This document shows, piece by piece, positions 861-40,146 of a stretch of DNA of 44,032 bases; the stretch's first letter is position 1, and each line of letters starts with the position of its first letter. Under the pieces are notes generated by a model. That model had not been told where the DNA came from. It worked only from the letters and a program-made list of their open reading frames with translations, and ran no database searches. The position numbers and the translations under genes are program-made. This stretch comes from a virus, in IMG/VR virus record IMGVR_UViG_3300025147_000022, positions 1-44,032 of that record. One strand, written 5' to 3'.

Positions 861-1529
861 TTATCTACTCATTAATTCTTTAAATGCCTCAGCTCCGAGC
901 TGTCCATTGGCTGTCTTGTATCCCATGCATTTACGGAATACATTCACGGCCTCCGTTGTTGCAGGTGTCCATATTCCATTCACCGTGAGATTGTTGCACT
1001 TTAGCTCATTGAGCTTTGTCTGGATTGCTCTAGTCACGTAAGGAGTGGTGTGTTTGGCATCGAATACCGTTGTGAAATCACCTTTGACTTGAAAGTGGGG
1101 ACTATCCGGAGAACTGGTCCAATTCGCTCCAGCTTCAAATCCGTATTTCTGCATCGTCCGGATGATGATCTGCGTCTGAGGATCTTTAGTATTCCAGATT
1201 GCCACCATCTTGCCATTTACCAAACGCTGAGGAACCACATCAACCGCTTTCCGACTCTTATGTACACTATTTAGTGTCCAAGTAATCTTGCCCGATTTAG
1301 GGCTACAATAGGCGGTTGCAAATGCATTATTAATTCCTTTAATGACAGCTTCGTAAATTGTACGTCCCTGGCAGTATAAGTAGTTCTGTCGTTGCTGTTG
1401 TCGATAAGTTTCTACGACCAAGGGATTCACTCCCTGGGACTTAATATCTGCTATGGCAAGCTCTAGCATGGTTCGGACCATCTTATTCAACTCTTTCAGA
1501 TCAGAGCATCTTTCTGGTAGTTTATTCAT
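861..1529 (-). CDS. Endolysin: M15-family peptidase with peptidoglycan-binding tail
   Basis: A 222-aa lysis enzyme predicted to cut the peptide part of the cell wall. The M15 (VanY/CwlK-like) zinc-ligand pattern is visible: NSVHKSRKAVDVV supplies the first His and Asp, and SPHFQVKGD the last His. The last 50 residues (NNLTVNGIWTPATTEAVNVF) match a PG_binding_1 domain. The start at 1529 follows GGAGGG; upstream in-frame codons overlap the holin and lack a ribosome site. It follows the holin with an 8-base overlap, as in a standard lysis cassette, and a strong terminator follows. There is no signal peptide, so export depends on the holin. Confidence 0.88.
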   Translation of the reverse strand: MNKLPERCSDLKELNKMVRTMLELAIADIKSQGVNPLVVETYRQQQRQNYLYCQGRTIYEAVIKGINNAFATAYCSPKSGKITWTLNSVHKSRKAVDVVPQRLVNGKMVAIWNTKDPQTQIIIRTMQKYGFEAGANWTSSPDSPHFQVKGDFTTVFDAKHTTPYVTRAIQTKLNELKCNNLTVNGIWTPATTEAVNVFRKCMGYKTANGQLGAEAFKELMSR

Positions 1530-17023: not shown

Positions 17024-17581
17024 CTAACTGGCATAACGCCATGAATAACCTCTTGTTGTTTTTCGCTTTCCAGTACAACACTCTGAAATTTTCCCATTAT
17101 TACAACCTACTGCGTTTGCTGCTTCAATTGTAGATTCATACTTTGAAATAATTTCTCCTGTTAACGGGTTTAATTGTATGACTGTCTTTTTATTTCGGCC
17201 ATGTCTCTGACCTAAACAAATGGGAATAGGGTGTTTTTTAACATAATCTGAAATTCTCTGGTTCCTTGTGCCCCAATTAGAATTTTCTTTACTTGTAACC
17301 CACTGAAGATTATCCGTACAATTATTTAGCTTATTTTCATCAAGATGATTAACCTCTGGCTTATTATCATTGTTTCCAACAAAAGCCATAGCAACCAATC
17401 TGTGTACTGAACAAGTCTTTTTAACACAATTATTATGTAGTACAACTATCGCGTATCCCTTACTTGTCTTTTGTTTTCTAATACCACCTCTTGTTTTATC
17501 CCCTGGATAGCTTTTTACTCTGCCTATATTGGATATTTGATATAAACCCTCATATCCTACAATATCTTTCCATTGTTCCAT
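17024..17581 (-). CDS. HNH homing endonuclease (NUMOD4-HNH-NUMOD1)
   Basis: A 185-aa protein. Residues 1-45 are NUMOD4 (EQWKDIVGYEGLYQISNIGR); an HNH_3 nuclease follows with VHRLVAMAFVGN and EVNHLDENKLNNCTDNLQWV; residues 125-180 are a NUMOD1-like DNA-binding helix (STIEAANAVGCNNGKISECC and RGYSWRYAS). It is a selfish endonuclease inserted between the MuF/YjcQ and scaffold genes. A terminator lies just before it. I saw no intron structure that would connect split gene halves, so it looks free-standing. Confidence 0.92.
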   Translation of the reverse strand: MEQWKDIVGYEGLYQISNIGRVKSYPGDKTRGGIRKQKTSKGYAIVVLHNNCVKKTCSVHRLVAMAFVGNNDNKPEVNHLDENKLNNCTDNLQWVTSKENSNWGTRNQRISDYVKKHPIPICLGQRHGRNKKTVIQLNPLTGEIISKYESTIEAANAVGCNNGKISECCTGKRKTTRGYSWRYAS

Positions 17582-25670: not shown

Positions 25671-25764
25671 TAGGCTTGTACTAAAAGAGGCACCCAGTCT
25701 TTAACAACCAAATGCCTTTTTGCATTGAGGAGTATTAATGAGGTTCCCTCTGGGGAAGAGGGAA

Positions 25765-25835
25765 TGGAATTGGCAGGAGTCGAACCCACATCCGTTGTCA
25801 TACGATACATGCTCTGCCCATTGAGCTACAATCCC
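25765..25835 (-). tRNA. tRNA-like gene with abnormal anticodon arm (isotype not assignable)
   Basis: Acceptor arms GGGATTG and CAATTCC pair over seven bases; the D arm GCTC-AATGGGCA-GAGC and T arm GTGGG-TTCGACT-CCTGC are normal. The 20 bases between the D and T arms (TGTATCGTATGACAACGGAT) do not form a standard 5-bp stem with a seven-base loop and leave only about three bases for the variable loop. No CCA is encoded. It may be a degenerate phage tRNA or a tRNA mimic. Confidence 0.5.
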
Positions 25836-25966
25836 AGATGTTTTTCATGTTAACGTACACGAAAAACTATACTAATAAAAACTAAACGAATTCATTAAAG
25901 AATGAATTAAACTACACTTTCTTTTCGGGAAAGGCCGAACAAAGAAGTATGAAGAAAATCGCCTCT

Positions 25967-26037
25967 TGGACATTATCGGACTCGAACCGATGTTTCAGGA
26001 TTTGCTATCCTCGTTCTACCAACTGAACTAAATATCC
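25967..26037 (-). tRNA. tRNA-like gene, possible tRNA-Cys(GCA), odd anticodon loop
   Basis: Acceptor GGATATT/AATGTCC (one G-U), D arm GTTC-AGTTGGTA-GAAC, T arm ATCGG-TTCGAGT-CCGAT are all good. The anticodon hairpin AGGA-TAGCAAA-TCCT has a four-pair stem; with this loop the anticodon would be GCA, but position 33 is A where almost all tRNAs have U. Total length is 71 including the discriminator, identical to the neighbour. No CCA encoded. Confidence 0.6.
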
Positions 26038-26302
26038 ACGCAACATGTAAGACAGTTGCCAGCAATAGTCATTTTATTTTTAAGTGGTGAGTACTATAGG
26101 ACATTCCACTCTGCATGCGGTGTTTGAAACTCCTTGAACTATCCGCTAAAGTTTTCACTGTTTGTTACAGCTTTATGGTCGTCACCATAAGAAGTCATAT
26201 TGGTCGAATTACCGTGCAGTCGATAACTTATAATTTTTTATTTTTGCATCCTAACAATAACATAAACATTGTGTATCATTCTATACCATGATAATTTTTA
26301 GT

Positions 26303-37915: not shown

Positions 37916-38012
37916 TCCCTGTTACCTCCTCATTATCTTGGTTACAATCCGAGCATTCCTCTCCCGGATCAAGTGCCGCTCCACAGCCGGGACATGTATG
38001 GTAATAACTCAT
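37866..38012 (-). CDS. Small zinc-ribbon protein (48 aa)
   Basis: MSYYHTCPGCGAALDPGEEC then SDCNQDNEEVTGNENDTKK. Four cysteines (CPGC and CSDC) form a zinc ribbon. It starts in an ATGA overlap with the tandem-AbrB gene and ends 50 bases inside the ATPase gene in a different frame. Clear coupling and a recognisable fold support it. Confidence 0.65.
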   Translation of the reverse strand: MSYYHTCPGCGAALDPGEECSDCNQDNEEVTGNENDTKKNTHPELQRV

Positions 38013-38404
38013 AAGCCTTTATCCATAACCATGTCGGTTACGGCCAATGCACAGTTCTTACAAATATGTACTTCCTTTACCGGATACAATTCAAACAGCT
38101 CACCGGTCCGGCCACAAATAGCACATTCCTTTGAATTCTTCCGGACGCATATCTCTTCGCCTGCCATGTACATATCAACTGGATCCTTCTCTGCTATGCC
38201 AAGTGATCTCCGAACTTCAATCGGTAATGTATACCTGCCTAATTCATCAAGCTTTCTTCCCTTTCCCTTCTTTAGGTGAATAACTTTTCCTTCTATGTAC
38301 AAATCCATAAACGTTCCGGGTTCTAAATCCATCGCCCTTCTATATTCCATCGGAAGAGTGATTCTCCCGAGTTCATCAATTTTTCTAACGATTCCACGTG
38401 CCAT
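38009..38404 (-). CDS. Tandem AbrB-type DNA-binding protein with zinc ribbon
   Basis: A 131-aa protein with two AbrB/SpoVT swapped-hairpin domains in one chain: RKIDELGRITLPMEYRRAMD (residues 6-25) and RKLDELGRYTLPIEVRRSLG (about 50-69). A C-terminal CAICGRTGELFELYPVKEVH with CKNC forms a zinc ribbon. AbrB domains normally dimerise; a tandem can form this pseudo-dimer alone. Likely a transcription regulator of early genes. ATG follows the gene at 38404-38604 with overlap. Confidence 0.85.
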   Translation of the reverse strand: MARGIVRKIDELGRITLPMEYRRAMDLEPGTFMDLYIEGKVIHLKKGKGRKLDELGRYTLPIEVRRSLGIAEKDPVDMYMAGEEICVRKNSKECAICGRTGELFELYPVKEVHICKNCALAVTDMVMDKGL

Positions 38405-38993: not shown

Positions 38994-39104
38994 TTACACC
39001 TCCTTCCTAAATTCAGTTACTTGACCATTTTCGATTACGGTTATTTCGCCTTTCATATCAAACATATCAAGGCAATCTTGGATTGTAATAGCTTCTTTAT
39101 TCAC
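38994..39104 (-). CDS. Micro-protein (36 aa, GTG start)
   Basis: (M)NKEAITIQDCLDMFDMKGEI then TVIENGQVTEFRKEV. GTG behind AAGGAGGG. The stop codon overlaps the ribosome site of the next gene. Similar short proteins are frequent in early operons of clostridial phages. It diverges from the plus-strand KTSC gene. Confidence 0.62.
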   Translation of the reverse strand: MNKEAITIQDCLDMFDMKGEITVIENGQVTEFRKEV

Positions 39105-39123
39105 TGCTTGTCCCTCCTTTTTC

Positions 39124-39152
39124 TTGTAAATTTCTCCATATTCTTCTATAAT
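39124..39152 (+). promoter_or_regulatory. Plus-strand promoter, copy A
   Basis: TTGTAA (39124-39129), 17 bases, TATAAT (39147-39152), followed by an inverted-repeat-like TATCAG ... CTGAAATA segment. The entire block to the ribosome site is almost the same as copy B at 39774-39802. Confidence 0.75.
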
Positions 39153-39203
39153 GTGTATATCAGAATTGAATATCTGAAATACATAAGAAAGGAGTTTTTA
39201 CTT

Positions 39204-39410
39204 ATGAATATGGTTCCTGTTACATCTTCAAATTTAAGCGCTGTTGGTTATGAAAACAGTACGCTCTTTGTAAGTTTCAATTATGGTGGTTTGTATTCCT
39301 ATGATAACGTTCCACAATCGGAACATAGAGCCCTTATGGCAGCTACCTCGCATGGTAGTTATTTTGCTGCTCATATTAAGAATTCTTACCGCTGCACAAA
39401 AATTCGCTAG
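39204..39410 (+). CDS. KTSC-domain micro-protein on opposite strand
   Basis: A 68-aa protein: PVTSSNLSAVGYENSTLFVS, FNYGGLYSYDNVPQSEHRAL and HGSYFAAHIKNSYRCTKI match the KTSC domain (PF13619), a small fold often found next to lysyl-tRNA synthetase or in phages. It is transcribed against the early operon from its own promoter. Ends tail-to-tail with the next minus gene, sharing the bases CTAG. Confidence 0.85.
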   Translation: MNMVPVTSSNLSAVGYENSTLFVSFNYGGLYSYDNVPQSEHRALMAATSHGSYFAAHIKNSYRCTKIR

Positions 39411-39547
39411 TCAATTATTACTAGAATAGTTGCTGGACCAACTTCGCTGCTAATTACTTCCTTATATGGTTCAGCAATTATTTTCCTCACACCTTCGCGT
39501 TTTTCTAATTCCCTTACTAGATCCGATGTACTTACATCTCTTAACAT
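39407..39547 (-). CDS. BC1881-family micro-protein
   Basis: A 46-aa protein: MLRDVSTSDLVRELEKREGV then RKIIAEPYKEVISSEVGPAT and ILVIID. This is the BC1881 family of conserved phage micro-proteins, function unknown. Ribosome site GAAAGGAGG. Stop codon overlaps that of the plus-strand KTSC gene. Confidence 0.75.
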   Translation of the reverse strand: MLRDVSTSDLVRELEKREGVRKIIAEPYKEVISSEVGPATILVIID

Positions 39548-39561
39548 GGTTCTTCCTCCTT

Positions 39562-39756
39562 TCAATCATCACTCTCGTACTTGGTATTCTCATAAGCAAA
39601 CTCAACCATCTTTGATACGATACTTCTTAGTGACTCTCCTGTTTCATCTGCAATCTCTAAAACCTTGTTGTAGCAGTCAGCGTTAATTTTGATCACTACT
39701 TGTCCAGTTGCTTCGACAGGTGGACGCTTCTTACGCTTGAATATTAGTTCTGGCAT
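39562..39756 (-). CDS. Ribbon-helix-helix-like small DNA-binding protein
   Basis: A 64-aa protein: PPVEATGQVVIKINADCYNK then VLEIADETGESLRSIVSKMV. The strand followed by two helices is typical of Arc/CopG/ParD RHH regulators. ATG at 39756 is chosen (AGGAAG eight bases upstream); GTG at 39765 overlaps the ribosome site. It diverges from the plus-strand gene at 39852, and could be the regulator of the duplicated promoters (inference). Confidence 0.75.
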   Translation of the reverse strand: MPELIFKRKKRPPVEATGQVVIKINADCYNKVLEIADETGESLRSIVSKMVEFAYENTKYESDD

Positions 39757-39773
39757 TTCAAACACTTCCTTTC

Positions 39774-39802
39774 TTGTAAAATTTCCAATATGCTCCTATA
39801 AT
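39774..39802 (+). promoter_or_regulatory. Plus-strand promoter, copy B
   Basis: TTGTAA (39774-39779), 17 bases, TATAAT (39797-39802), then GTATCAG ... CTGAAATAC. It aligns with copy A from -35 through the ribosome site GAAAGGAGTT. Confidence 0.75.
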
Positions 39803-39851
39803 GTAGGTATCAGAATGATACGCTGAAATACATATGAAAGGAGTTGTTACT

Positions 39852-40022
39852 ATGTCTGATTCAGTTGAATTGTCAACTTTCCCATCTAATCGGTTAGATG
39901 GCCTTACCCTTCTTTATCTTGAAAAACAGGATCTTTCAAATTTGTCCCCCGAAGAATTTGTAGATAAATATTATATTGTAAGGAAACAAATAGCCGAACG
40001 AATTAAAGTAAATCGACAATAG
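39852..40022 (+). CDS. Micro-protein on opposite strand (56 aa)
   Basis: MSDSVELSTFPSNRLDGLTL then LYLEKQDLSNLSPEEFVDKY and YIVRKQIAERIKV. ATG at 39852 behind GAAAGGAG. All-helical, acidic N-terminus. Its promoter is a near copy of that of the KTSC gene. It overlaps the 3' end of the minus gene at 40003-40146 tail to tail by 20 bases. Family unknown. Confidence 0.72.
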   Translation: MSDSVELSTFPSNRLDGLTLLYLEKQDLSNLSPEEFVDKYYIVRKQIAERIKVNRQ

Positions 40023-40146
40023 CGACCATGGCCATTGTTATTTCTGGTAAATCTTCATCTAAACAAGTCTTAGATCTCTCCGCTAATAGTTTGAGCTGTT
40101 GGCGGAGTATTTCTTTTTCTGATATTTCACTGATTAATTCTGGCAT
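40003..40146 (-). CDS. Micro-protein (47 aa)
   Basis: MPELISEISEKEILRQQLKL then LAERSKTCLDEDLPEITMAM and VAIVDLL. Helical. Strong ribosome site GAAAGGAGG. Overlaps tail to tail with the plus gene above by 20 bases. Function unknown. Confidence 0.65.
   Translation of the reverse strand: MPELISEISEKEILRQQLKLLAERSKTCLDEDLPEITMAMVAIVDLL

Follow-up and report, generated by a model that had tools for sequence, protein, structure and literature searches.

The window, meaning the whole 44,032-nucleotide stretch of viral DNA analysed here, contains two plus-strand microgenes that lie antisense to the early operon, each headed by a similar block. Microgene A (39204-39410) encodes a 68-aa KTSC-domain protein (Pfam PF13619, E 1.2e-19; phrog_3292) and is preceded by block A (39120-39203). 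Microgene B (39852-40022), preceded by block B (39770-39851), encodes a 56-aa protein with no match in Pfam, belonging to a family that it shares with leader-driven genes in two relatives (L007 and L086); the alignment of this family was too diverse to serve as a search query. Common to the two blocks are a predicted sigma-A promoter, a TATCAG...CTGAAATAC element and a Shine-Dalgarno (SD) sequence, GAAAGGAG. The layout is TTGTAA-17-TATAAT, 5 nt, TATCAG, a short spacer and CTGAAATACATANGAAAGGAG, with the start codon 8–9 nt further on; the GAAAGGAGTT of both blocks is SD sequence. A promoter scan placed the TTGTAA-17-TATAAT promoters at 39124..39152 (A) and 39774..39802 (B), and the SD sequences GAAAGGAG lie at 39187..39194 and 39836..39843, all on the plus strand. 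The initial annotation had described both blocks, with their promoter, TATCAG element and SD, and the opposition of both genes to the lytic operon, and this descriptive part stands.

On the minus strand, a small early-operon gene (39562..39756) diverges from block B. Its product appears RHH-like by eye (phrog_5118) and has weak YebG and HicB-like matches; we treat it as a context gene. A possible 36-aa micro-ORF with a GTG start (38994..39104, minus strand) diverges from block A. Other features of the window, all on the minus strand, were recorded alongside. Two neighbouring early genes begin with near-identical 15-base starts, ATGCCAGAACTAAT (39742-39756) and ATGCCAGAATTAAT (40132-40146), both encoding MPELI, the remainder of the two proteins being unlike. 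The product of 38009-38404 combines two segments resembling AbrB/MazE with what may be a zinc finger at its end. At 25764-26038 lie two tRNA genes, one for Cys (gca) and one, as predicted, for Ile (anticodon tat), and an ORF amid the structural genes (17024-17581) resembles, by eye, an HNH homing endonuclease.

Promoters A and B rank among the best-scoring promoter-like sites of their region, but the regional total of 32 such matches is no higher than in shuffled sequence (26.3 ± 5.1), so a promoter on its own is no proof. Transcription is predicted to start at an A 7 nt past the -10 (A39159 in block A, A39809 in block B); start-site mapping by dRNA-seq or Capp-Switch is available for Clostridium phytofermentans (PMC5171806). 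In block A a hairpin with a 5-bp stem, UCAGA and UCUGA around an 8-nt loop and followed by AAUAC, begins at the predicted +2 (39160..39177, plus strand), at a spacing from the -10 that is kept in relatives; the leader folds at -9.8 kcal/mol (z -2.2). The corresponding element of block B (39810..39826, plus strand), identified by folding and by a model, R2, has a 4-bp UCAG...CUGA stem and faces a competing hairpin, GUAUCA/UGAUAC, at 39807-39821. Taken alone, the block B leader has a fold no more stable than those of shuffled sequences (z +0.28), yet R2, which contains no window sequence, recovers it at 23.7 bits (E 0.011 in 498 kb). The window copies are thus atypical members with weak hairpins.

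A repeat search aligned the two blocks over 47 nt at 81% identity (D2, 39120-39166 and 39770-39816) and over 29 nt at 93% (D3, 39174-39202 and 39823-39851), the two copies lying at a distance of 650 bases. The 21-nt core CTGAAATACATANGAAAGGAG, allowing up to three mismatches, occurs at only these two sites in the whole record and nowhere in its reversed control. The initial reading of A and B as a local duplication does not hold up: block B is 88–89% identical to the blocks of two other phages, L001 and L006, and only 77% identical to block A. Block B being nearer to those phages than to its neighbour, the two blocks appear to belong to a dispersed family and to have been acquired independently of each other.

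When viral contigs were scanned for the core, seven phages were found, and looser patterns gave more, including MT835488, a phage record from human faeces. Matches in bacterial genomes came from a Roseburia MAG, a Herbinix MAG and Bacterium 1XD21-70. In every relative except L012 the block stands ahead of a different, mostly very small ORF; the L012 match has no -10 and was judged to be chance. The search for the block in front of other microgenes elsewhere, proposed at the outset, therefore found it before unrelated genes in other phages, and the likeness among relatives goes beyond the promoter consensus, the conserved part being the leader. We gathered about 130 leader copies, mostly from phages of Lachnospiraceae. 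Model R1, built from 16 copies, matched 13 of 397 Lachnospiraceae genomes and revealed weaker copies with different compensated stems, and R2, a model of the second hairpin type described below, matched 54 of the 397 sampled, with at most five copies per genome. Among 391 sampled Clostridia R2 found the leader in five, three of them also in the family sample, leaving two further genomes beyond it. In these samples the leader is strongly enriched in Lachnospiraceae. A 48-nt consensus gave only weak BLAST matches to named phages and plasmids. One prophage, L004, holds five copies within 2.5 kb (L080 12003-14523); two pairs of neighbouring copies there are 94% and 90% identical, which suggests recent amplification with exchange of genes.

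The element between the -10 and the SD forms, at the predicted start of the transcript, an RNA hairpin with a compensating stem of 4–6 bp. Its loop is usually 6 nt long and reads YYGCCR, and GAGUAC or AAAUAC comes after the hairpin; the commonest 6-nt loops are CUGCCA, CCGCCA, UUGCCG, UUGCAG and CUGGCA, and loop length varies in several copies. Compensated stems among the weaker copies include UCAGCA/UGCUGA, UCAGUG/CACUGA, CCAGA/UCUGG, CCGA/UCGG and UCAAC/GUUGA. A second type has stems such as GGUCA/UGACC, GGCUC/GAGCC and AGCCU/AGGCU between the flanks ACA and GAGUAC. The stem begins 7 nt past the -10 in the first type and 9 nt past it in 75 of 89 copies of the second. The predicted promoters of leader units are sigma-A-like hexamers at a fixed spacing from the leader. 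Of 42 distinct hairpins, 34 close the loop with C.A or U.G (19.4 in shuffles); these are isosteric wobble pairs that replace one another.

In a set of 104 copies (A10), 96.8% of cells are paired, compared with 81.7% in shuffles (0/500), and all eight pairs are altered on both sides. Cells with double changes number 98, against 22.4 in shuffles (0/500), and pairing drops to 24–27% when the partner is shifted by one column. This set was gathered with a structured model and is biased towards paired copies, so less biased checks matter. Among 31 first-type hairpins, many of them collected by a sequence pattern, pairs 5 and 6 covary (shuffle P 0.0002–0.0004), and covariation is also present in other, smaller sets. 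A pattern blind to the stem gave eight matches against none in its reversed control, and five of these have the hairpin, with compensated stems; the other three (G073, G104 and G191) have none and were taken as chance. When KTSC genes were sought through protein similarity alone, those of L090, L096, L097 and L106 proved to have the leader, and its stems there are new and compensated. The free energies of typical leaders are not beyond those of shuffles (z +0.67 to -1.5), so it is the covariation that carries the claim of RNA structure, and on this basis we regard the structure as well supported.

Of the 129 listed copies, 123 open into an ORF of 30 aa or more. The 118 distinct proteins that they drive fall into 81 unrelated families, with a median length of 72 aa. 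KTSC, DUF2513 (E 2e-19) and YjzC (E 3e-14) are recognisable among them, and several others match solely PHROGs of unknown function. With gene calls made as simple ORF picks, the neighbour on the 5' side is on the opposite strand in 36 of 39 and 75 of 82 cases in two sets, and the neighbour on the 3' side in 37 of 42 and 73 of 83. The leader shares its strand with tyrosine integrases in 11 of 14 cases, with serine recombinases in 5 of 5 and with CI-like repressors in 21 of 23, and a CI-like gene is near the leader in most carriers. With opposed neighbours and a strand in common with integrase and CI, the leader genes thus have the orientation of lysogeny and lie within the early operon, close to the switch. 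As an observation on one carrier, the integrase gene of L070 (4612-6154) directly adjoins the tmRNA gene, suggesting that the latter is the attachment site.

The same cargo also occurs in other hosts. KTSC in the Streptococcus phage Javan527, and both KTSC and DUF2513 in the Solobacterium phage SMO_1P, occupy the same antisense place behind a short leader without a hairpin. The KTSC search with which these hosts were named used a query whose C-terminal part was approximate, and served solely for that naming. The KTSC genes of the Streptococcus prophages (Javan527, L120; L098-L115) have a compact start, TATAAT-N4/5-TATC-N6/8-GAAAGGAGG, with a short predicted leader from which the hairpin is absent. 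A unit near position 3031 of L097 lies beside a hairpin array and has no hairpin itself. The hairpin is therefore not essential everywhere. Its absence from these genes outside the family, taken with the 5 of 391 genomes in the class sample, indicates that it tracks the host family and not the cargo.

What the hairpin does can be read in several ways. The initial annotation had taken the element for a DNA operator, perhaps of the RHH protein, and a palindromic operator over the start site, for that protein or for CI, would account for the TCAG...CTGA dyad at this position and for the CI-like gene near most carriers; covarying arms are also conceivable if each phage had its own palindrome. We consider it highly improbable. 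In 14 of 20 multi-copy elements the half-sites of a single prophage are unlike one another (copies grouped by hand from parsed stems), while the same stem recurs between unrelated phages. The loop and the 3' flank are asymmetric yet conserved, with a loop length that is not constant, and relatives of the RHH protein are present in only 3 of 26 leader-bearing elements compared. The shared promoter and leader and the opposed microgenes thus remain of the original interpretation, and the duplication, the RHH regulator and the operator do not. Least probable of all, and very improbable in our judgement, is a leader that regulates nothing and serves purely as a recombination seam, a common sequence through which phages swap microgenes homologously. 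Window block B, L001 and L006 do have near-identical blocks ahead of unrelated genes, and neighbouring L004 copies are 90–94% identical, but covariation, the closing-pair swap and the fixed -10 spacing indicate selection on RNA form and not on DNA identity, and the compensatory changes contradict such a seam as the sole role.

A more serious possibility, though one that we hold only tentatively, is that the hairpin is a site for an RNA-binding protein or RNase of the host, or one that is widely shared, which would raise or lower the expression of all these prophage microgenes in concert, with YYGCCR in the loop and GAGUAC in the flank as its recognition letters. A Lachnospiraceae factor reading such hairpins might then join dozens of unrelated prophage microgenes into one regulon, an idea to which we likewise give less than even weight. 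Conservation of loop and 3' flank despite varying stems, the isosteric closing swap, the enrichment in Lachnospiraceae and the hairpin-less units with the same cargo in other hosts all favour it, and a pure stabiliser needs no conserved loop or flank, which is why we give this reading the weight that we do. A phage-encoded factor is a poorer candidate: among 26 elements, no gene family except diverse HTH repressors is common to most carriers. The commonest families that are neither HTH nor integrase, ParB-like (by eye) and AbrB-like, reach just 8 and 7 of the 26 and were rejected as a shared trans factor; relatives of the window's 38009-38404 protein occur in 7 of the 26. Against a host factor, the hairpin leaves the SD uncovered, so that repression would need an extra step.

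The reading we favour, and think somewhat better than even, is that blocks A and B are members of a widespread Lachnospiraceae prophage expression unit for accessory genes read in the lysogen. Such a unit would consist of a sigma-A promoter, a transcript opening with a compact hairpin, GAGUAC or AAAUAC, a strong SD and one small accessory gene. Comparison of the copies makes evident the common architecture, the stem covariation, the conserved loop and flank, the unrelated cargo, the strand in common with CI and integrase and opposed to the early operon, the enrichment in Lachnospiraceae and the prophage site near the immunity switch; the start site, the expression in the lysogen and the shut-off on induction are what we infer from them. 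The microgenes would be "moron" genes that are on by default: the lysogen would express them as long as CI keeps the early operon silent, and on induction the opposing early transcription would shut them off. The hairpin would guard the 5' end of the transcript and keep the SD open, and a host protein or RNase may recognise it as well, because loop and flank are conserved beyond the stem. Whether as end protection or through a host factor reading its loop, these functions are put forward as possible roles.

Several known systems resemble parts of this unit. In Salmonella prophages, accessory loci have been described that possess a promoter of their own and run antisense to lytic genes (PMC7067206), and leader units are like these moron loci in being small antisense genes with an apparent promoter of their own near the immunity region. 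The leader genes likewise lie inside prophages, antisense to lytic genes. To our knowledge, no single structured leader has been described for morons across unrelated genes and phages. In Bacillus, mRNA is stabilised by a hairpin or a ribosome-binding site near the 5' end (PMC3997798), which fits the architecture of the leader; the aprE leader stem-loop of B. subtilis and STAB-SD similarly place a hairpin and a ribosome-binding site in a short 5' leader (PMC3997798). In typical leaders the hairpin sits at the predicted 5' end and the SD is unpaired in centroid folds. Whereas aprE and STAB-SD concern individual genes, the leader has a covarying stem and a conserved loop and flank before 81 families. 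The nearest idea is SAS/ESAS of cluster K mycobacteriophages, in which one start-associated sequence stands on many phage genes (PMC3203893). SAS/ESAS belong to another host, have a different sequence (GGGATAGGAGCCC, 17-bp repeats) and a different repeat length, and the text consulted reports no stem covariation for them, while the leader unit spans the predicted start site to the SD; the 13-bp GGGATAGGAGCCC described at the start codon is absent from the leader sequences compared.

No family among the Rfam 15 covariance models matches the leader. One carrier, L096, has an Rfam GP20-b element (RF03003) outside the leader (1284-1354, minus strand; 41.3 bits, E 6e-7), about 90 bases upstream of the leader of its KTSC gene and on the strand opposite to that gene; GP20-b is also cis-regulatory, but its sequence and fold differ. 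A survey that looked for structured RNAs in metagenomes (PMC8040213) may include this motif in its supplementary lists, and we therefore make no claim of priority. As a sequence tag that Rfam lacks, the leader marks small accessory genes in prophages of a dominant family of gut bacteria, and nothing but sequence is needed to single out about 80 families in this way, mostly of unknown function. A further question is why the same folded RNA would stand on unrelated genes in unrelated phages, unless the host reads or needs it.
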